Positions 873 through 27,552 of a stretch of 27,552 bases of DNA are shown here, piece after piece. The notes under the pieces were generated by a model that did not search any database, was not told the DNA's origin, and saw only the letters and a program-made list of their open reading frames with translations. The first letter of the stretch is position 1, and every line of letters starts with the position of its first letter. The stretch is taken from positions 1 to 27,552 of the IMG/VR virus record IMGVR_UViG_3300030117_003057; one strand, written 5' to 3'. The DNA is from a virus. Both the position numbers and the translations under genes were made by a program.

Positions 873-3284
873 ATGGCAGAGTCTGTTATAAAAAGTTATT
901 TCCCAAGTCAAGTAGTTAGTGACGCTGAAAAGTTAAGCTATGAGTATGGTTTAAAAGTAGCTAAAGCTATAGAGCATGAGTGGTTTGATGAAGATCAAAA
1001 GATTTATAGATATATTCAAAATCAAAATGATTTTCATAACCTAAGACTATACGCTAGAGGAGAACAACATATACAAAAATATAAGGATGAATTATCTATA
1101 AACGGTGATTTGTCCTATCTTAATTTAGACTGGAAACCAGTTCCAATTATACCTAAGTTTGTTGACATAGTTGTTAACGGTATAGCTGAAAGAACTTATG
1201 ATATAAAAGCTTATTCACAAGACCCATATGGTGTTTCTAAAAGAACAGAATATATGGAGTCTATATTAAAAGATATGCGTACTAAAGATTTTAATGATCA
1301 AGTACAAAACGAAATTGGTGTAAACTTATATGAAACAGATCGTGAAAAATTACCAGATAGTGAGGAAGAGTTAGCACTGCATATGCAGTTAACTTACAAA
1401 CAAAACGTAGAGTTAGCTGAAGAACAAGCTTTAGCTGTGTTAATGAATGGTAATAACTATGAGTTAATAAGAAAAAGATTTTACTATGATTTAACTGTTT
1501 TAGGTATTGGTGCGGTTAAAACAAACTTCAACACCTCAGAAGGTGTTACTATAGATTACGTTGATCCTGCTGATTTAGTTTATTCTTACACAGAGTCTCC
1601 TTACTTTGATGATATTTATTATGTAGGTGAGGTAAAAGAAATACCTGTAAACGAGTTAGCTAAACAGTTTCCACATTTATCTAATGAAGAGTTAGACGAG
1701 ATATCTAGAACTCAAGGCGTATCAAGAAATAGAAACAACCGAAGAAGAGACTCAGATAAAAATAAAATACAAGTTTTATACTTTAACTATAAAACCTACA
1801 TGAACGAAGTTTATAAAGTAAAAGAAACTGGTAGTGGTGCTGATAAAATTATAGCAAAAGACGATTCATTTAATCCACCAGAAAATAAAGAAGGTGGTTA
1901 TGCTAAATTACTAAGATCTATAGAGTGTCTGTATGAAGGCGCTTTAGTTTTAGGTACAAAAAAATTACTTAAATGGGGTATGGCTAAAAACATGATGCGT
2001 CCTAAAAGTGATTTTACTAAAGTTAAAATGAACTACGCTATAGTAGCACCTAGAATGTATAATGGTAAAATTGAATCTTTAGTTAGAAGAATAACTGGCT
2101 TTGCTGACATGATACAGTTAACTCATTTAAAACTACAACAAGTTTTATCAAGGATGGTGCCAGATGGTGTTTACTTAGACGCTGACGGTTTAGCTGAAAT
2201 AGATTTAGGTAATGGTACCAACTATAATCCACAAGAAGCGCTTAACATGTTTTTTCAAACAGGTTCTGTTATTGGTAGATCATTTACAAGTGAAGGTGAT
2301 ATGAATCCAGGTAAAGTACCTATTCAAGAAATACAAAGTAGTAACGGAGGTGCTAAAATGCAAAGTTTAATAGGTACGTATAATTATTATTTACAAATGA
2401 TAAGAGATGTAACCGGATTAAACGAAGCTAGAGATGCGGCTACACCAGATAAAAACGCTTTAGTAGGTGTACAAAAATTAGCAGCAGCAAATTCAAACAC
2501 AGCAACAAGACATATTTTACAGTCTGGTTTGTATTTAACGTCTGAAGTAGCAGAGTGTTTATCACTAAGAATATCTGATATACTAGAATATTCTCCTACA
2601 GCAGACGCCTTTATACAGTCTATAGGTGTACACAATGTAGCTACATTAGATGAAATGAAAGAATTACATTTGTATGATTTTGGTATATTTATAGAACTAG
2701 CACCAGATGAAGAAGAAAAAATGTTGTTAGAAAACAATATACAACAAGCGTTAGCACAGCAAAGTATAGAGCTTGAAGACGCTATTGATATTAGAGATAT
2801 AAAAAATGTTAAACTAGCTAACTCTTTATTAAAAATACGTAGAAAACAAAAACAACAAAGAGACCAACTGGTACAACAACAAAACATACAGGCTCAAGCT
2901 AACGCCAACACACAAACACAGCAAGCCGCGGCTCAAATGGAAATACAAAAACAAACAGCTATATCTAACGCGCAAGGGCAGTTAGAAACTTTAAAAGCTG
3001 AACTAGATGCTCAAAGGTTGGTTCAAGAGGCTGAAATTAAAAAACAATTAATGGAGTTAGAGTTTAACTACAACATGCAACTAAAAGGAACTGAAGTTGA
3101 AGGACAAAAAGAAAAAGAAAAATTAAAAGAAGATCGTAAGGATGAGCGAACAAAAATACAAGCTACTCAACAAAGTGAGCTTATAGACCAAAGAAAAACA
3201 GGAACACCACCTAAACAATTTGAATCAGCAGGTAATGATATACTTACTGGTGACTTTGATTTAGGTATGTATGATCCTAAATAA
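873..3284 (+). CDS. Portal protein
   Basis: This probably forms the dodecameric ring at the unique capsid vertex, through which DNA enters and leaves. At 803 aa it is in the size range of large podovirus portals, including those of crAss-like phages. The N-terminal part is mixed alpha/beta, with a DWKPVPIIPKFVDIVVNGI stretch typical of portal clip/wing regions. Residues about 180-270 contain the YYDLTVLGIGAVKTNF and VDPADLVYSYTESP segments. Residues about 500-560 read as portal stem and crown helices (YYLQMIRDVTGLNEARDA). From about residue 630 the chain becomes a Gln/Ala/Lys/Glu-rich predicted coiled coil of some 150 residues, which may be a barrel or an internal core extension. The gene lies between terminase and scaffold, the canonical slot. 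The leader is A-rich without a Shine-Dalgarno box. I assign the function from segment pattern and synteny. Confidence 0.85.
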   Translation: MAESVIKSYFPSQVVSDAEKLSYEYGLKVAKAIEHEWFDEDQKIYRYIQNQNDFHNLRLYARGEQHIQKYKDELSINGDLSYLNLDWKPVPIIPKFVDIVVNGIAERTYDIKAYSQDPYGVSKRTEYMESILKDMRTKDFNDQVQNEIGVNLYETDREKLPDSEEELALHMQLTYKQNVELAEEQALAVLMNGNNYELIRKRFYYDLTVLGIGAVKTNFNTSEGVTIDYVDPADLVYSYTESPYFDDIYYVGEVKEIPVNELAKQFPHLSNEELDEISRTQGVSRNRNNRRRDSDKNKIQVLYFNYKTYMNEVYKVKETGSGADKIIAKDDSFNPPENKEGGYAKLLRSIECLYEGALVLGTKKLLKWGMAKNMMRPKSDFTKVKMNYAIVAPRMYNGKIESLVRRITGFADMIQLTHLKLQQVLSRMVPDGVYLDADGLAEIDLGNGTNYNPQEALNMFFQTGSVIGRSFTSEGDMNPGKVPIQEIQSSNGGAKMQSLIGTYNYYLQMIRDVTGLNEARDAATPDKNALVGVQKLAAANSNTATRHILQSGLYLTSEVAECLSLRISDILEYSPTADAFIQSIGVHNVATLDEMKELHLYDFGIFIELAPDEEEKMLLENNIQQALAQQSIELEDAIDIRDIKNVKLANSLLKIRRKQKQQRDQLVQQQNIQAQANANTQTQQAAAQMEIQKQTAISNAQGQLETLKAELDAQRLVQEAEIKKQLMELEFNYNMQLKGTEVEGQKEKEKLKEDRKDERTKIQATQQSELIDQRKTGTPPKQFESAGNDILTGDFDLGMYDPK

Positions 3285-4596: not shown

Positions 4597-6078
4597 ATGG
4601 CAATAACTGCGGGAACTAATTTGAATAGTGTTGCTGCTCCACAAAAGCAGACATTATCTTCAAATTATGTTGACTTTACGTCAAGCTCAACTGAAGGTTG
4701 GGCACAACAATACCTGCCTGAGTTAATGGAAAAAGAAGCTGAGGTTTTCGGACCTAGAACAATTTCTGGTTTCCTTAACCAAGTAGGTGCGGAAGAAGCA
4801 ATGACTTCCGATAGAGTTATATGGTCTGAGCAATCAAGATTACATATATCATTAAGAGGTACTATCGATTTAGATGGTAACGTATCTTCATCAGGTGCAA
4901 AAGGTAAATTTACTGTTACTACTGATATTGATGGTAACGACGCTGATGATGGATTCACTCTTGCTAGTCACGGTGTAAGAAACCACGATATCTGTTTACT
5001 TTCAACTCCAGGATATGTATCTAGAGTTATGGTTGTAGCTGTTGATGGTACAGCGATTGGTGTTAGAGCTTACGACGAAGATGTATTAACTAATCACTCT
5101 GAAACAGCGGGTGCTGCTACATTATTAGTTATCGGTTCTGAATACAAAAAAGGAGACAACTACGATGGATCAGCTACACATGAAGCTAACGAACCTAAAT
5201 TTAAAACTTTTACTAACAAACCAATTATAATGAAAGATTACTACGAAGTATCAGGATCTGATGCTGGTAGAATTGGTTGGATAGAAGTTTCTTCTGAAGG
5301 TGGTGCTTCTGGATACTTATGGTATTTAAAAGCTGAAGCTGACACAAGAGCAAGGTTTACTGATTACTTAGAGATGGCTATGCTTGAGTCTATTCCAGGT
5401 TCTAACTCAACTAACGTTGATGGTGAATTAGGTTTATCTCCAGAAGGAGATGCTGGTACTGAAGGTTTATTCTATGCTATAGAAAACAGAGGTAACGTTA
5501 CTACTGGTGTAACTGGTGTTAACGCTGCTACTGATTTAGCTGAATTTGACGCTATACTAGCGGAATTTGATAAACAAGGTGCTATTGAAGAAAACATGAT
5601 GTTTGTTAACAGATCAACTAGCTTAGCTATTGATGACATGTTAGCTTCAATGAATTCTCATGGAGCTGGAGGTACTTCTTACGGAGTATTTGACAACTCT
5701 GAGGACATGGCGCTTAATTTAGGTTTCTCTGGTTTCAGACGTGGATCTTATGATTTCTACAAATCTGACTTCAGATACTTAAATGATAAAGCTACTAGAG
5801 GTGGTATAAATGCTACAGCTGGATCTGAAGCTTTAAGAGGTGTTATTATACCTGCTGGATCTTCTTCAGTTTATGATCAAACTGTTGGAGCAGCTGTTAG
5901 ACGTCCTTTCTTACACGTTAGGTATAGAGCTTCTCAAACTGATGACAGAAGAATGAAGTCTTGGGTTACTGGTTCTGTAGGTGCTGCAACATCTGCTTTA
6001 GACGTAATGCAAGTACACATGCTTTCTGAAAGATGTTTAGTTACTCAAGGTGCTAACAACTTTATGTTAATGAAGTAG
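4597..6078 (+). CDS. Major capsid protein
   Basis: This 493-aa protein is the likely HK97-fold shell subunit. The N-terminus (AGTNLNSVAAPQKQTLSSNY) and the segment YLPELMEKEAEVFGPRTISG look like the N-arm and E-loop region of a marine podovirus capsid family. Residues about 80-190 are beta-rich and probably an inserted surface domain. Residues about 240-330 contain the helical spine (TRARFTDYLEMAMLESIPGS), and the C-terminal part ends with ERCLVTQGANNFMLMK. It follows the scaffold gene after a 19-base A/T-rich gap. The gene ends with tandem in-frame stops (TAG then TAA) and is followed by a GC-rich terminator-like hairpin, both fitting a very highly expressed gene. Ser and Ala are mostly TCT and GCT, and Asn and Tyr favour AAC and TAC more than in the neighbours, by eye. 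Confidence 0.85.
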   Translation: MAITAGTNLNSVAAPQKQTLSSNYVDFTSSSTEGWAQQYLPELMEKEAEVFGPRTISGFLNQVGAEEAMTSDRVIWSEQSRLHISLRGTIDLDGNVSSSGAKGKFTVTTDIDGNDADDGFTLASHGVRNHDICLLSTPGYVSRVMVVAVDGTAIGVRAYDEDVLTNHSETAGAATLLVIGSEYKKGDNYDGSATHEANEPKFKTFTNKPIIMKDYYEVSGSDAGRIGWIEVSSEGGASGYLWYLKAEADTRARFTDYLEMAMLESIPGSNSTNVDGELGLSPEGDAGTEGLFYAIENRGNVTTGVTGVNAATDLAEFDAILAEFDKQGAIEENMMFVNRSTSLAIDDMLASMNSHGAGGTSYGVFDNSEDMALNLGFSGFRRGSYDFYKSDFRYLNDKATRGGINATAGSEALRGVIIPAGSSSVYDQTVGAAVRRPFLHVRYRASQTDDRRMKSWVTGSVGAATSALDVMQVHMLSERCLVTQGANNFMLMK

Positions 6079-20164: not shown

Positions 20165-20908
20165 ATGAGTACAAAAGAATCACCAATGAAATTACCTTTT
20201 CTAGCTGCTATTGGAGGGGCGTTAGGTTTTACGGGCACCGCTGCGGTTACAGCAGGTGCTATAGGAGTAGGAACTGGCGTGGCTGGTATCGCTGCCGCTA
20301 GAGGAATAAGTAAGGGTAATAGAAAAAGAAGAAATCAAATAAGAAAAGCAAATCAAGAGTTGAAAGAACAAAGGAGAGCTTACTTAGACTTTGATGTAAC
20401 TAATCCGTATATGGGCTTAACTAACGCTTATGCTGATATGGAAAACGTAATGGAAGATTTAACTGTTGATCAAAAAGCAGCTCAGTTTCAAGCTGAACAA
20501 GGCGCGCAACAAAGAGCTGATATTTTAGCTAATTTACGTGGTACAGCCGGTACAAGTGGTGTAGCTGCTTTAGCTCAATCTTTAGCACAGCAAGGCCAAG
20601 TACAAGCACAACAAATGTCAGCATCTATAGCGCAACAAGAAGCTGCTAACCAAAGAGCCAGAACGCAAGAAGCTAGTAGAATACAACAATTACAAAGAGG
20701 TGCTGAAATGCAAATACAAGGGCAAGAAGCTTATGGTGAGTTAATAAGACAACAAAGAGAAATGGCTAGGCAAGAAACATTACTGGCTGGAGCTTATGCT
20801 AGAGCTGGCGCCGCTTACGATGCTAAGCAAAGATATACAGAAGGAATAATAGGTGGTGTTACTAATATAGTTGGCGCTGGTGTTAGCGCACTTATGCCAC
20901 CATCATAA
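20165..20908 (+). CDS. Putative ejection (internal virion) protein, gp14-like
   Basis: This 247-aa protein has a hydrophobic Gly/Ala-rich region at residues about 9-48 (LPFLAAIGGALGFTGTAAVT onward) that could span a membrane. A basic turn follows (GNRKRRNQIRKANQELKEQR), then an Ala/Gln-rich helical body (residues about 95-215) rich in QQ and RQ heptad-like stretches. It ends in a second hydrophobic segment (GIIGGVTNIVGAGVSALM). This matches what is known of small ejection proteins such as T7 gp14, which inserts into the host outer membrane. The first of three consecutive genes of rising size, it parallels T7 gp14-gp15-gp16 in order. The start at 20165 is the first ATG; a second Met at codon 8 (20186), just before the hydrophobic region, is also possible. 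Function is inferred, since sequence similarity to gp14 was not tested. Confidence 0.55.
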   Translation: MSTKESPMKLPFLAAIGGALGFTGTAAVTAGAIGVGTGVAGIAAARGISKGNRKRRNQIRKANQELKEQRRAYLDFDVTNPYMGLTNAYADMENVMEDLTVDQKAAQFQAEQGAQQRADILANLRGTAGTSGVAALAQSLAQQGQVQAQQMSASIAQQEAANQRARTQEASRIQQLQRGAEMQIQGQEAYGELIRQQREMARQETLLAGAYARAGAAYDAKQRYTEGIIGGVTNIVGAGVSALMPPS

Positions 20909-20925: not shown

Positions 20926-22263
20926 ATGAGTAATTTATATAAAGCAATGTCAGATTATTACCAAGCTAGGGCTGGAAGCGCTAGTGGTATGGCTTTTGAA
21001 GCAGCTGGAGAAATAGCTGGTTTAGCTTCTGCTTATTTTGTAGAAACAAGAAAAAGAGCTAACGAAAAATTAAAAGAGTTTGATGTTACCGCAACACCAA
21101 AATCATTATCTTTATGGAACTCATCTGGTATGGATTATTATTCTAACAAGCTAGATGTTTTAAATGATAGAATGAATAAAGCTAGAAAAAATCCTAAAAA
21201 GAACAAAACAGAGATAATGAACATATACAAAGAGTATGAAGCTGTAAAAACCTCAATAAACAAATTACCTGGGTTTATGGATGAAGCTAAGAATAATGCT
21301 GACGGAGACAACTACTCTAGAGCTTCTAGTGATAAATACATAAACCAAGTTATATCAGAAAATTACGAGGTATATGAAAACGACGAAGGTAAAACAATGA
21401 TTAAGTTATTTACAGATACACCAGACGGACAATTAACAAGTTTTGATGGTACTTTAGATGATTTTGATGATATGATATTTTTAGAAAGAAAAGATGTAGG
21501 CGATAACATAGTTAAGATAATAGACAAAATAGTTAAAAACCAAGAAAACTATGAAGACGGAGAACTACAACAAGCATTAAGCGATATAGTTGGTGATAAA
21601 GAAGTTTTGTCATCTGCTTTTTGGGACGATATATTTCAGTTAACATCAGGACCTTTTAATACTACAACACTAGCTGATCAGTTTGCTTTAGAGGCTGGTT
21701 ATGATGCTAGTAAAATGGATGAATATAAAATATCTTCTGCTATATTTAACAGTTTAGACCCTGAAACACAAGGTGAAAGATTAAATGAAATGCAAAGATA
21801 CGTTTTTGATAAAGTAAACATGCTTAGTAGAGGTAGATACCAAAGTAATTTAAAGCCTAAAAAAGGCGCTAAAGGTACTATGCCTAGTGAAACTATAGAT
21901 TTTGAAGGTGGTAGCATAGAGTTATTTAAAGAAAAATACAAAACAGTAGATGTTGGTGGTACAGAGATGAGTCCTATTATAGCCAACAATTTACTTAGAA
22001 AAATAGAAGCCAAATACGTTGACCCAGGATCAGAGTTTGGTGTGTCATTTGAACACAATGGTGGATATTACAAATGGGATGGTCAAGACTGGAGAGTTAC
22101 TTTTAACAGAAGACATTTAAGCAAACCTAAAAAATGGGATGTTTATACAGAAACACAGGTGTTAGATGAATTAGGGTTTGGAGCATACATGGGTATGAGT
22201 TCTGGAGGTGGTTCACAAAGTACAAATGTACCACAAGGTGGTGGTAGATATGATAATAAATAA
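20926..22263 (+). CDS. Putative internal virion/ejection protein, middle gene of the cassette
   Basis: I do not recognise a named domain in this 445-aa protein. The N-terminus has an Ala/Gly-rich amphipathic helix (ASGMAFEAAGEIAGLASAYF), followed by a charged helical region with poly-Lys patches (KARKNPKKNKTEIMNIYKEY). The middle (about 150-250) is acidic (FDGTLDDFDDMIFLERKDVG). The C-terminal 130 residues are mixed, with an aromatic segment (HNGGYYKWDGQDWRVTFNRR), ending in a Gly/Ser/Gln-rich tail (residues about 425-445). It lies 17 bases after the gp14-like gene and 5 bases before the giant gene. By order and size it occupies the place of T7 gp15, a tube-forming ejection protein. This is inference only. 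Confidence 0.5.
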   Translation: MSNLYKAMSDYYQARAGSASGMAFEAAGEIAGLASAYFVETRKRANEKLKEFDVTATPKSLSLWNSSGMDYYSNKLDVLNDRMNKARKNPKKNKTEIMNIYKEYEAVKTSINKLPGFMDEAKNNADGDNYSRASSDKYINQVISENYEVYENDEGKTMIKLFTDTPDGQLTSFDGTLDDFDDMIFLERKDVGDNIVKIIDKIVKNQENYEDGELQQALSDIVGDKEVLSSAFWDDIFQLTSGPFNTTTLADQFALEAGYDASKMDEYKISSAIFNSLDPETQGERLNEMQRYVFDKVNMLSRGRYQSNLKPKKGAKGTMPSETIDFEGGSIELFKEKYKTVDVGGTEMSPIIANNLLRKIEAKYVDPGSEFGVSFEHNGGYYKWDGQDWRVTFNRRHLSKPKKWDVYTETQVLDELGFGAYMGMSSGGGSQSTNVPQGGGRYDNK

Positions 22264-22268
22264 GCACA

Positions 22269-25200
22269 ATGAGTAATAGCGAAAATTTATGGAGATCATT
22301 AAGAGCAGATAACCTGTACACTAAATCTTATGAAGATTTTAAAGTGCAGTTTTCTGACAAAGAAAGTAGAGACAACCTTTATAGTGCTCTAAAACAAGAT
22401 AACCTGTACACAAAAAGTTCTAGTGATTTTGAAGATCAATTTTTTAAACCAAGTAATACGTATAGGTATACTAAGCACAGAAAGGTTAAAAACAAAGAAG
22501 AAGTTGTTTCATCTTTAAAATGGATAGAAGAAAACAACAATATAAACACTAATCAAGAACTTAAAGACAGAACAGCTATAGAGTTTTTTGGTGAAGATGC
22601 TGTTGAGTTAATGAAACGTGGTATGGTTGGTCGTTTTTTAAGGCCAGATGTGTCAAGGGTAGCTGGTAGCAAGCGTGCTAAAGACACTTTAAACGAGTAC
22701 ACCGACCAAGAGTGGATAAATCTTTTTAATGGTGATACAGAAAAATACAGATTATTTAGAAATTACTTTGAGACTGGTGTGTTAAATGTTAATGATATAA
22801 ACGACAGCGACTTACTAAAAGAATATGATCAAACAGCTTTTACGCAAACAAAGTTAAAAAATGATGAAGATCACGATAGATACTTACAAGGTATAAAAAA
22901 GAAAAGAAGAAAAGATGGTGTTATAGAAGATGCTTTTGTTAAAATGCTAGAAGAGTCTAATTATTCTAAAAATCCAGTAGACGCTGAAAGCTTGTATCAA
23001 AACCCAGAGGCACTTGAAAAGTTTTTTGTAGAACAAGGTGATCTTTTAAACACCGAGTTTAAAGTTTTAAAAGCTGAAGGTGAAAGCATAGCTAACGATA
23101 TAAAACAATACACTACTATGCAAAATGGGCAGTTGGTTTGGACTGGACCTGAAGACATGAGAGACAGTTTTATGATAAGAGCTCAAGCTTATGAAGATAG
23201 ACAAGATGATTTTTTTGATAGAGCTTCAAAACTAGAGTCAAACTCTGGTATGTTAGAGTCGTTAAGCCACAACTACAACACGGGCTACAGAACAAGATTA
23301 ATGTTAGAGAAAACATTTAGTGAGATAGCTTTTTCTACAAATAAAATTTCTACATGGATAAAAAACATAGCTGGTAGTGATACAAGTAGACTATTAGAAA
23401 AAAAGGCAAATCATATAGATATATTAGAAAGTCTTAACAAAAAAATAGAAACAACATTACCACAAACCATAAAGCTTAAAAACGCTAAGTGGAGCGACGT
23501 ATCTAGTTTAGCTAAACAAATGTTAGGAAACAACTCTTTTAGTATAGGTACAGCCTTAGCGTTTGGTGGTTTTATTAGCAGGTTTGGTAAAATTAAAAAA
23601 GGTTTGTCAGTGACTCAAGCTAACGGTAGAATAGCGTGGGCTAGAAGAGGTATGATGTCTACGTTTTTCGCGGCTGAAGGTAGTGCTAAGTTAAGCGAAA
23701 TGGAGTTATTTGAGGCGAAAGCTATAGAAATGATTGGTAAAGAAGGCGAAACAGGAGTGTTACATGAAAGGCTAGCTAAAGCTACTAGTAATGCTGAAAG
23801 AAGAGATATAGAAGATCAAATAGAGTATTACGCTAAAGGTTTAAGTTATACGGAAAAACAAAAAGCACTTTCATTTTTACTTTACGGCGGTATAGCTTCT
23901 TATGCTGAAAGATTAGGTACTTTAAAATATATAGAAGATTTAAGTAAAGGAGCTAGGATGTTTGGTGGTGGTTTGCTTAAAACAGGTAAAAGAACTGGAT
24001 TTTACATGGGAGTTGAGCTTTTTGAGGAAACAGCCACTCAAATAGGACACAATGGGGTAGATATAGCTATATTAAAACAAGATAAAAGCTTACTTGACGG
24101 TGTAGATGCTGATTTCGCTCTCAACGTTTTATTTTCGTCTTTAGTTATACAAGGACCGTCTATATCTCAAAACGGTTATAGCATGGTATTAGAAGGTATA
24201 AAAACACAAAAAGATATATCTGCTAGTATTAAAATGCGAAATGAGGTTTTAGAAATAAACAAACAAATAAAAGATCTTGAAAGTATGCCTCAAAACGAGG
24301 GTACTAAAATGGCTTTACAAGAGTTAAGAGGTGATTTAATGGGTTTAATACAACAATCAGCTTTAATTGATCAAAGAACAGCTGCTAACGCGATGAACTT
24401 AACTAATGATCAAGTAAGAGAGGCGTTTGAAAAAGATAGACAAGCTAGAAAAATACAAAGAAAAGCAAATGAAATAGGCCAAAGCGGTATAGAAAACGCT
24501 TGGTCTGAGAAAAAACTAAAACAATTACAAGTAGAGTTAAATAAAATATATCAAGATAAAGACGCTATATTAAACAAACCAAAACAAGATCTGCAAAAAA
24601 CATTACAAAAAGACGGTAAAATACCAACGGTTGAACAATTTAGATCAGCTGGTAATTATATGTTTTACAAAAGTATAGCTCAAGGTAGTGGTCACACTGT
24701 TTACACAATTAAAGAAGAAAAAGATATTCAAAACTACGCTAAAGAAAAAAACTTAAGCCAAGAAGAAACAAAGGAACTTATAGATGAATATAAAGCTGGT
24801 GGTTTTGGCAATAATATAGCTGTACCTGGCAAAAAAGCAGATATACTTTTGTATGAGAGTAATGCTTTAGGTGCTAATGGTGTTATGTCTGACAATGCTC
24901 TTAATAGATTAGCCGCTTCAGTTGTGGGCTTACACGAGCTACAACACTCGTATGATAGAGCTACAGGTATAGTTAAAGATAATAAAGTTGTAAAACATGT
25001 TAGAGATATTTTAGATCAAGTTGAACAACAGCTAGTTGCCAACGGTGTTAGTGAAGCCGTGGTAGATGGTTTTAAGAAAAGAAGAGCGCTTTATGACACT
25101 AAAGATGGGGTTGATTATACAGAGGTTATGACTATATTAGGTGAACTTGTAGCTAAAAAACATATAAAATCAACAAACAAATCAACTTTACTTTCTGTAA

Positions 25201-27552
25201 AATCTTTAAAAAGAAACGCTTTAAGATTAGTTTACGGTGATAGAGCTGAGGTGTTTGGCATGGGTACGGTTAACGATGTATTTGAGTATTTGGAAAGATT
25301 TGTAGATAGAGCTAAGCGAGGTAAAATCCTAGCGTCAACGTTACCTGAAGAAGAAGAAAAAGCAATAAAAGCATCTAAAACTGATTTAAAGTCAATAATA
25401 GAAATGAGAGCGGGTAAAGACACGTTAACACAGCAAGATGTTGTTGATTATGTAAACGACGTTAAAGCTTCTGAAGCTGCTCGTAGAATGTTCAACCAAG
25501 AGATAGAAGGTTATGTGGAAAACAGAACACGAGCTAATTTTGATAAAATAATACCAGAACTTACAGCTGTTATAGATAGTAACAGGAGTGAAGCTAGAGC
25601 TAAATATAAAGATAGATTACAATTATTAGCGTTAGATATACTTAAAACATGGAAACCTGGCGGTATGGATGTGGATGGTTATTTAAGGTATTTACTATGG
25701 GAAAAGTCTAAAGCGTTGGCAACGCAAATGGGTGTTCAGCAAAAGGTGACTAAAAAACTAGATGATACTCTTGAAGGTCAACTACCAACACAACAAGTTG
25801 ATAAAGAAATACAAGAGTTTGAAGAAAAAGATATATTTGCTGCACAAATAGCTAAAATAAAAGCTAAAGATAAAAAAGACACTGAATTAATAGAAGAGAA
25901 AAACTTTAGAAAAGATATAGGTATAACACCTCAAATGGTTGACGAGTTTAAAAAGGAGGTTGGTGAAGTGTTAAAAGATCCAAACCTACCCTTAGTTAGT
26001 GAGTTTGACTGGTACCAAAGCTTTAAAGATAAAACTTATAGAGGTAAACTTTTTAAAACTATAGGCAAGTTTGCTGGCACAGCTAACTCACAACAGTTTA
26101 AAGATTTTCTTAAAAAAATAGCCAAACCTTATATAAAATACGCTCCAGGATCAGAGTTAGTGCAACTTGAAAAAATGGTTAAAGATAAAATATTTGTAGA
26201 AACAGTTAGGGCTACTAACCAAGCAATGATAGATGAAGCTATAGACAAAGGGTTGTTGAGGCCGTTTGAATACAAAACAGAAGAACAAGGTCCAGCTATT
26301 TACCAAAAGAAAAAAGTTAAACAAGATGACTTTGTAGATTTCTTTTTTGGTAAAAGAGGTAGAAGAAACTCACTATTAGATAATATAGTTAATATGATTT
26401 CTATGGACGCTGTATTTACAGTACTAAGAGAAAACCCGGATATATTAAACACTTTAAAAGAAAACAATGCTAAAAAAGGTTTACCTACAAACAAAAATTT
26501 ATTAGGTGAATTAAAACACAGAATAGACAGAGGTAGAACTATTAAGTTTAGTAAGGCTTTTAATGCCGCTGATCAACAAAGTAAACAAATATTTGGTAAT
26601 GGTATGCCTGCTTTTACCGCTGAAATTAGAAAAAACGGTGGAGATGTTAAAGCTGCTTTTGATGCTGTGTACCCTAAAGATCTTTTTGGTAAAAAACAAA
26701 ATCAAATCATAGAAGACTTAACAAAGTATTTAACGTATTACGAGCAGTACGAATCTGCTATGAAAGGTGTTGGTAGAAAAAGATTTAAAAAACTAGATCA
26801 ATACATAACTGAAGAGTTGGTTTCGCCTGAACTAACAGTAACAGATATAAGAAACGCTTTTGGATTAGGTAAAAAAGATGTTAACTTTAATGATAAAGAA
26901 CAACTGGTATCAGCTAGAGAAGCTCTAAAGAAATTAATAAATATTTTAGGTTATGATAAAACTGTAAGGTTTTTAAAAGCCGCTTTAACTGGCCCAACAC
27001 AAATAGGTGGAACCGATTTAATAGCTTTGTCTGTCACTCAGCTTGAAACAGGTAAAACACAAAAGAAACTGGATAAGTTATTAAAGAAAAAAGAAGATTT
27101 ATCGAAAAAAGAAGATTTATCGAAAAAAGAACAAGAAGAAATAAAAAAGCTAAATAAGAAAATAAAAGAATATAAAAAAAGAATAAAAGAAGGTATACCT
27201 CCTAGTACACGTTATGGTTTAGTAGAAGACGTTAATGATCTTGTAAAAAACTTTATGCATGACATGAAGTCTGAAAAACCTTTTGATAAAGCTAATCCTC
27301 AAAATGTAAAATCAACAAAAGAAAAAGGTATAAACCAAGACTTTAATGAGTTAGAAAAAAACTCAAAACAAGACAGAGAGTTTTTAGTTGAACTAATGGA
27401 TATATTAGCAGAGCTTCAAAAAAAGAATAATGAATATAAAGTAGACCCAATATCTGTAAACGATGCTGCTATGATAACTAAAAGTTTAACCAGTGGTATG
27501 AACACGTCACTAGCTGCAGCTGCCACACTTAGATATGTACCTTATGTAGGCA
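22269..27552 (+). CDS. Giant internal virion/polyvalent-type protein with HExxH motif (3' partial)
   Basis: The frame stays open from the ATG at 22269 to the right edge: at least 1761 codons, with no stop. Residues 1-58 hold two 30-residue repeats (LRADNLYTKSYEDF and LKQDNLYTKSSSDF). Residues about 423-440 form a hydrophobic Gly-rich segment (SFSIGTALAFGGF). Residues 578-591 (FYMGVELFEETATQ) match a helix pattern often seen in large phage virion proteins. Residues 889-893 are HELQH, an HExxH zincin motif, in VVGLHELQHSYDRATG. Glu952 and Glu959 in DYTEVMTILGELVAKK are candidate third zinc ligands. The remainder is highly charged and helical, with an 18-base tandem repeat near residues 1606-1621. 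By position it corresponds to T7 gp16, but no lysozyme or transglycosylase motif was recognised. I infer an ejected multidomain protein, perhaps with peptidase activity. The gene is too long for a usual enzyme. Confidence 0.7.
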   Translation, partial: MSNSENLWRSLRADNLYTKSYEDFKVQFSDKESRDNLYSALKQDNLYTKSSSDFEDQFFKPSNTYRYTKHRKVKNKEEVVSSLKWIEENNNINTNQELKDRTAIEFFGEDAVELMKRGMVGRFLRPDVSRVAGSKRAKDTLNEYTDQEWINLFNGDTEKYRLFRNYFETGVLNVNDINDSDLLKEYDQTAFTQTKLKNDEDHDRYLQGIKKKRRKDGVIEDAFVKMLEESNYSKNPVDAESLYQNPEALEKFFVEQGDLLNTEFKVLKAEGESIANDIKQYTTMQNGQLVWTGPEDMRDSFMIRAQAYEDRQDDFFDRASKLESNSGMLESLSHNYNTGYRTRLMLEKTFSEIAFSTNKISTWIKNIAGSDTSRLLEKKANHIDILESLNKKIETTLPQTIKLKNAKWSDVSSLAKQMLGNNSFSIGTALAFGGFISRFGKIKKGLSVTQANGRIAWARRGMMSTFFAAEGSAKLSEMELFEAKAIEMIGKEGETGVLHERLAKATSNAERRDIEDQIEYYAKGLSYTEKQKALSFLLYGGIASYAERLGTLKYIEDLSKGARMFGGGLLKTGKRTGFYMGVELFEETATQIGHNGVDIAILKQDKSLLDGVDADFALNVLFSSLVIQGPSISQNGYSMVLEGIKTQKDISASIKMRNEVLEINKQIKDLESMPQNEGTKMALQELRGDLMGLIQQSALIDQRTAANAMNLTNDQVREAFEKDRQARKIQRKANEIGQSGIENAWSEKKLKQLQVELNKIYQDKDAILNKPKQDLQKTLQKDGKIPTVEQFRSAGNYMFYKSIAQGSGHTVYTIKEEKDIQNYAKEKNLSQEETKELIDEYKAGGFGNNIAVPGKKADILLYESNALGANGVMSDNALNRLAASVVGLHELQHSYDRATGIVKDNKVVKHVRDILDQVEQQLVANGVSEAVVDGFKKRRALYDTKDGVDYTEVMTILGELVAKKHIKSTNKSTLLSVKSLKRNALRLVYGDRAEVFGMGTVNDVFEYLERFVDRAKRGKILASTLPEEEEKAIKASKTDLKSIIEMRAGKDTLTQQDVVDYVNDVKASEAARRMFNQEIEGYVENRTRANFDKIIPELTAVIDSNRSEARAKYKDRLQLLALDILKTWKPGGMDVDGYLRYLLWEKSKALATQMGVQQKVTKKLDDTLEGQLPTQQVDKEIQEFEEKDIFAAQIAKIKAKDKKDTELIEEKNFRKDIGITPQMVDEFKKEVGEVLKDPNLPLVSEFDWYQSFKDKTYRGKLFKTIGKFAGTANSQQFKDFLKKIAKPYIKYAPGSELVQLEKMVKDKIFVETVRATNQAMIDEAIDKGLLRPFEYKTEEQGPAIYQKKKVKQDDFVDFFFGKRGRRNSLLDNIVNMISMDAVFTVLRENPDILNTLKENNAKKGLPTNKNLLGELKHRIDRGRTIKFSKAFNAADQQSKQIFGNGMPAFTAEIRKNGGDVKAAFDAVYPKDLFGKKQNQIIEDLTKYLTYYEQYESAMKGVGRKRFKKLDQYITEELVSPELTVTDIRNAFGLGKKDVNFNDKEQLVSAREALKKLINILGYDKTVRFLKAALTGPTQIGGTDLIALSVTQLETGKTQKKLDKLLKKKEDLSKKEDLSKKEQEEIKKLNKKIKEYKKRIKEGIPPSTRYGLVEDVNDLVKNFMHDMKSEKPFDKANPQNVKSTKEKGINQDFNELEKNSKQDREFLVELMDILAELQKKNNEYKVDPISVNDAAMITKSLTSGMNTSLAAAATLRYVPYVG
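22284..22442 (+). repeat. Two tandem 30-codon repeats at the start of the giant protein
   Basis: Residues 7-28 and 37-58 align with a 30-residue period: L(W/Y)xxLxxDNLYTKSxxDFxxQF. At the DNA level AGATAACCTGTACA occurs exactly at 22307-22320 and again at 22397-22410, 90 bases apart. Such short N-terminal repeats are known to me in other large phage virion proteins, where their role is unproven. A packaging or ejection-targeting tag is a reasonable idea. Confidence 0.75.
27086..27131 (+). repeat. 18-bp tandem repeat, about 2.5 units
   Basis: The unit GAAAAAAGAAGATTTATC occurs at 27086-27103 and 27104-27121 without mismatch, and its first 10 bases recur at 27122-27131. In frame it encodes repeated KEDLSK within a Lys/Glu-rich helix of the giant protein, so copy-number change would be tolerated in frame. 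Confidence 0.85.

Follow-up and report, generated by a model that had tools for sequence, protein, structure and literature searches.

The giant virion-type protein at the end of the window (here, the whole 27,552-base stretch that was analysed, which is an entire IMG/VR record) carries a predicted zincin-like peptidase domain, and the same pattern recurs in nearly all related giant proteins. Judging from residue conservation together with the fold of a predicted model, we are confident that this is a zincin domain. It adds a new case to the known MPTase theme of "polyvalent proteins" (PMC5512222). A zincin-type HExxH domain in such a protein was proposed in the initial annotation of this DNA, and both the conservation among homologs and the fold matches of the model support the proposal. 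The complete explanation, in which a gluzincin-like peptidase in an ejected giant protein would cleave that same protein, is one towards which we lean slightly.

The window holds a structural module, running from the end of a terminase through a portal protein, a scaffold-like protein and a probable major capsid protein to further virion proteins, one of which is 2819 aa long. The module ends with three late genes encoding proteins of 247, 445 and more than 1761 aa (Table 1). The portal and capsid proteins match those of phages of Flavobacteriia, namely Elemovirus (Flavobacterium), Cellulophaga phages phi38:1/phi40:1 and phi46:3; further matches come from Tenacibaculum phages, Maribacter phage Panino and the metagenomic phage ctfjg026. 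Because of these sequence matches, the host is most likely a marine member of the Bacteroidota. The portal gene of the window was found in the records of all 15 relatives tested, and they thus belong to the same phage group as the window. In brief, the phage is an uncultured, short-tailed podophage, most likely of Bacteroidota, and the giant protein is the largest of its three late virion-type proteins. The gene for the giant, which is at least 1761 aa long, lies in one operon-like run with the portal and capsid genes. The last three late genes of phi38:1, the Elemovirus giant and gp120 of phi46:3 are annotated as structural, and the name giant virion protein is given on the strength of gene position and of these positional equivalents.

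Table 1. Positions in the window of the features discussed in the text.
Feature	Position	Strand	Basis
Portal protein	873..3284	+	PHROG 6547, E 1.6e-146; 43-53% identity to Elemovirus, Panino and ctfjg026 portals
Probable major capsid protein	4597..6078	+	PHROG 13704 virion structural protein; relatives found
247-aa protein with Gly/Ala-rich hydrophobic start, first of the late trio	20165..20908	+	Position of phi38:1 gp099, "virion structural protein"
445-aa protein, second of the late trio	20926..22263	+	Position of phi38:1 gp100, "structural protein"
Giant virion-type protein	22269..27551	+	Open frame to contig end, C-terminus missing; homologous to complete giants
Best conserved block outside the zincin, aa 520-640, with hydrophobic segments	23826..24188	+	40-51% identity to the window in five relatives
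Zincin-like peptidase domain, aa ~820-1044	24726..25400	+	Profile match, AlphaFold2 model, structural matches
HELQH, aa 889-893 (two predicted zinc-ligand His and predicted catalytic Glu890)	24933..24947	+	Translation; HExxH in 73/74 relatives
Glu952, candidate third zinc ligand	25122..25124	+	Glu in 74/75 domain sequences; in the model, on a helix that follows the one with HExxH
Glu959, a further conserved acid, two helix turns beyond Glu952	25143..25145	+	Asp/Glu in 73/75

The reading frame of the giant starts with the ATG at 22269, stays open to 27551 and runs off the contig end, so that 1761 aa are visible. Translation of positions 24915-24968 (+) gives ASVVGLHELQHSYDRATG, and that of 25119-25160 gives TEVMTILGELVAKK, which contains Glu952 and Glu959, located 59 and 66 residues past His893. 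HELQH at residues 889-893 and the positions of the two Glu residues had been described in the initial annotation, and the translation shows this description to be exact. When the residues of the 1761-aa protein were shuffled, any HExxH was present in 12 of 2000 shuffles.

The whole giant protein, used as query, gave no match in the phage collection or in IMG/VR, and a search with its relative L089 retrieved nothing beyond L089 itself. Relatives were reached via the capsid gene, then via gene order and then via a conserved C-terminal domain of complete giants. Via the capsid, giant genes were reached in two GenBank phages and a dozen IMG/VR phages; all have one HExxH except ctfjg026, which has two. 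When these first giants were shuffled, an HExxH was found in 0 to 5% per protein. The window protein aligns over long stretches with the giants L126, L130, L148 and L144, and with L161 over its last 600 aa, with E-values of 1e-63 to 1e-110. The motif region of relatives reads HELQHINDIKTGLV, HELQHINDVKTGLV, HELQHKYDINKGLV and HELLHIQNRKAGIV, compared with HELQHSYDRATGIV in the window. L089, which is 27% identical to the window protein over 876 aligned positions, reads HEMGHSYDAFTGLF and has kept the equivalents of Glu952 and Glu959. A profile from which the window and L089 had been left out matches aa 820-1044 of the window protein in register (14.9 bits, one-sequence search), and profile A5, to which the Elemovirus giant had not contributed, locates this giant's domain around HEIFH. 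Alignment A2 contained no stretch conserved enough for a scan.

Eighty giants were fetched with the C-terminal domain, not the motif, as bait, and the 74 with more than 900 aa before this domain were counted. Exactly one HExxH lies upstream of the C-terminal domain in 73 of these, at a shuffle expectation of approximately 1.25% each. The control set came from 80 related contigs retrieved via the capsid gene. Its 283 ORFs, none shorter than 400 aa, contain a single HExxH in 207,731 aa; the giants contain 73 in 221,712 aa. A chance origin of the motif is rejected by the shuffles, the relatives and the control ORFs. L127, a complete giant without HExxH, reads FHHDAFHW upstream of the C-terminal domain, i.e. 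HDAFH (HDxxH), a natural Glu-to-Asp variant.

The domain was aligned for 75 sequences with a median pairwise identity of 19%, forming 69 clusters at 60% identity. It should be noted that sequence selection fixed HExxH in this alignment but put no constraint on Glu952. The Glu952 column holds Glu in 74 of the 75 members and 68 of the 69 clusters, and 73 members have Asp or Glu at position 959. The linker between HExxH and Glu952 varies from 48 to 108 residues, and Gly845 is the sole other single-residue column above 85%. The His and Glu residues on which the initial annotation had built its proposal are thus kept in the homologs. The pattern is that of a gluzincin-like site, with the two His and the Glu of a later helix as predicted ligands and Glu890 as the predicted base. 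Glu952 is the candidate for the third ligand, and Glu959 is a second conserved acid.

An AlphaFold2 model of aa 779-1063, made with 69 sequences, has a pLDDT of 77 and a pTM of 0.73. Its elements follow in the order helix, strand, helix, helix, strand, strand, HExxH helix, further helices and Glu952 helix. HExxH lies within one helix (model residues 108-121) and Glu952 in a later helix (172-184). The top 18 rows of a VIA-align search are anthrax toxin structures, nearly all of them lethal factor, represented mostly by its catalytic zincin domain; the best Z is 6.5 over approximately 156 residues, below the value of 8 that the tool calls safe. The match to the anthrax toxin is one of fold only and says nothing on toxicity. 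The next rows include the zincin-like 3cmn, MATCAP and 3e11, among unrelated rows at Z of at most 3.1. A model of the relative L107 has zincins in its top six rows, at Z of at most 4.5 and partly matching a non-catalytic zincin-like domain. Foldseek alone, run against the PDB and viral models, gave no safe match and no zincin. The initial annotation had expected the two His and one of the Glu residues to cluster around a metal site in such a model. The order of elements, read along the chain, fits that of zincins, and zincins rank first for both models, at Z below 8. The case made here draws its strength from conservation and predicted fold together, a Z below 8 alone being no proof.

Neither Pfam nor PHROGs recognises the zincin domain of the window, and no Pfam domain above the cut-off was found in the window protein or in the relatives L097, L101 and L096. 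Weak hits were obtained with single members, to the metallo-protease phrog_87 in 3 of 16 (best 6.6e-5) and to DUF5700, M78 and M3; being weak and never including the window, they were used as hints only. A sequence-profile search of solved structures returned leucine-rich repebodies only, which we take to be spurious. An RNA polymerase was not found in the giants by Pfam or PHROGs families or by a DxDGD-like motif, although one may still be present. In the papers that could be searched, we found no account of such a domain from these phages.

A C-terminal domain of approximately 840 aa, unknown to Pfam and PHROGs, is strongly conserved among the complete giants. It was not seen in the window protein, where the contig stops before its expected start; L126, L130, L148, L144 and L161 all continue into it. 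The copies of this domain (L101:905-3418 (-), L098:9323-11845 (-), L097:3034-5511 (-) and the 80 fetched loci) are 49-75% identical. The domain opens in a region where HAD-like motifs (DFDDTL/DFDETL, LTAR, DDAL) were seen by eye. It is also present in a few GTDB assemblies (L187-L193) assigned to Sphingobacteriales, Maricaulis, Aliivibrio, Ilumatobacteraceae and Flavobacteriaceae; these occurrences in mixed phyla are probably phage contigs binned with metagenome genomes.

The domain of the window most likely belongs with the MPTases of Iyer et al. (2017), which fall into 12 clades, and with the HExxH domain of phage N4. It shares with the polyvalent MPTase domains (PMC5512222) an HExxH within one helix, a conserved Glu in a later helix, a variable insert and a mid-chain position in a giant phage protein adjoining virion genes. 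Iyer et al. identified the N4 MPTase by the same reference fold, anthrax lethal factor (PMC5512222). Unlike their polyvalent proteins, the window protein and the three scanned relatives have no Pfam-recognised partner domain; the partners here are a hydrophobic block and the C-terminal domain with HAD-like motifs. The C1 domain of the N4 virion RNA polymerase, gp50, likewise places an HExxH in a giant podophage protein that is packaged and ejected with two partners (PMC12633501, PMC5512222). According to a 2025 preprint on the N4 structure, the HExxH domain adjoins the polymerase in the ejected giant (PMC12633501). However, gp50 has a T7-type RNA polymerase domain N-terminal to its HExxH domain, whereas the visible part of the giant in the window gave no recognisable polymerase, and N4 is of another phage group with a host of another phylum.

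The giants of Elemovirus (QMP84709.1) and Podoviridae sp. ctfjg026 (UOF82488.1) follow portal and capsid in the same gene order and show the same pattern as the window, with one HExxH domain in Elemovirus and two in ctfjg026. They differ in being about 3700-3860 aa long and in giving no pairwise phmmer match to the window protein. In the ctfjg026 giant (L103, MW202828.1 600-12400; 3865 aa) the two motifs read HEFGHWAFF and HEFGHVWQD and are approximately 885 aa apart. The giants phi38:1 gp101, phi46:3 gp120/gp121 and that of Maribacter phage Panino also lie at the end of the structural module, but without an HExxH and without a match to the domain profile. The Cellulophaga phage proteins gp101 and gp120 are annotated as structural, and the Panino giant as "tRNA methyltransferase". 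A six-frame search found no zincin gene elsewhere in phi38:1 or phi46:3, and in Panino an HEIAH is encoded in a separate 186-aa ORF without a profile match. A comparison of the loci L106:21439-27958 and L085:35423-40912 shows that phi46:3 has two genes, gp120 and gp121, where Panino has one protein of 1829 aa. Complete giants with the zincin are mostly 2068-4137 aa long, and the three kin without it 1440-1829 aa.

In size series and place, the late trio of the window resembles the ejection-protein trio of podophages such as T7. It also resembles the corresponding set of N4, where the ejected giant is accompanied by partner proteins (PMC12633501). By analogy, we infer from the gene order and the size series of 247, 445 and more than 1761 aa that the giant protein is probably packaged and ejected with the DNA.

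We suggest that aa ~820-1044 would act as a gluzincin-like zinc metallopeptidase, with HExxH and Glu952 supplying the ligands and Glu890 the general base, in a giant protein that would be packaged and then ejected with the DNA. The peptidase would most likely cut the very protein that carries it, either in cis or from one copy to another, during packaging or after entry. Such a cleavage would free an N-terminal, envelope-crossing part and a C-terminal, enzymatic part to act separately. That the domain is near-universal in a protein that evolves fast points to a core task and away from an optional effector; it is probably a core tool that, at infection, cuts either the giant protein or a protein of the host. 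Self-processing is favoured because of this near-universality and because of the length gap between giants with and without the domain and the split gene of phi46:3, the last two arguments resting on few genomes; we give it an even chance of being the main role. Iyer et al. (2017) propose self-processing for such domains, and DdrB of phage P1 is cleaved before packaging (PMC5512222). Against it speaks that the N4 giant is packaged whole (PMC5512222) and that the unsplit 1829-aa giant of Panino lacks the motif.

The main rival is that the zincin is an effector that, after ejection, would cleave a host protein involved in defence, the cell envelope or transcription. We regard this as possible, though rather doubtful. 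Host targeting is the alternative given by Iyer et al. (2017) (PMC5512222), the domain resides in a protein that is probably ejected, and the sequences around its core are very diverse (median identity 19%), as expected if the targets differ. However, anti-host effectors are usually patchy in their occurrence, whereas this domain is present in 73 of 74 giants, and no host target can be named.

We consider it unlikely that the zincin fold is kept for structure, to help package or dock the giant, and has hardly any protease activity or none. The N4 virion RNA polymerase offers a precedent, as it carries an HExxH domain, is packaged unprocessed and needs its MPTase region for encapsidation (PMC5512222); its C1 domain with the HExxH is part of a folded C-terminal domain (PMC12633501). 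The single HDxxH relative would also fit a structural role. Retention of exactly the catalytic set, with the predicted catalytic Glu kept in 73 of 74 and the candidate third-ligand Glu in 74 of 75 while nearly everything else drifts, is nevertheless not expected of a purely structural domain. It is highly improbable that the HExxH marks a different metal enzyme, for instance one of the alpha-ketoglutarate-dependent HExxH hydroxylases from which it is known and which are cited for N4 (PMC12633501), since a conserved Glu in the following helix is the gluzincin signature and zincins come first for both models.

Predictions of zincin domains in giant ejected proteins go back to 2017. The biology was foreseen in general terms; the wide, near-obligate occurrence in this group was not found described in the searchable papers. 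Here a large phage group carries an almost universal domain that Pfam and PHROGs miss. One phage with a domain of this kind, Elemovirus, is in culture on Flavobacterium sp. BAL314, which makes self-processing versus host targeting directly testable. As a tentative extension of self-processing, we speculate that a self-acting zinc peptidase could be a near-universal core of DNA delivery in a large, mostly uncultured group of marine Bacteroidota podophages, splitting a giant ejected polyprotein on entry into a part that crosses the envelope and an enzyme from the C-terminus, and that kin without the peptidase would use a shorter or split protein, as in phi46:3.

Outside the zincin domain, the conserved block at aa 520-640 lies about 250-370 aa upstream of the HExxH. 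It gave weaker profile matches in the more distant giants L135, L185, L168, L186 and L121, and in the window it reads "ALSFLLYGGIASYAERLGT...EETATQIGHNGVDIAILKQDKSLLDGVDADFALNVLFSS". The N-terminus of the giant protein contains a short tandem motif, LYTKSYEDFKVQF / LYTKSSSDFEDQF (window positions 22299-22442, aa 11-58), and N-terminal stretches of L183, L111, L144 and L083 resemble this region.
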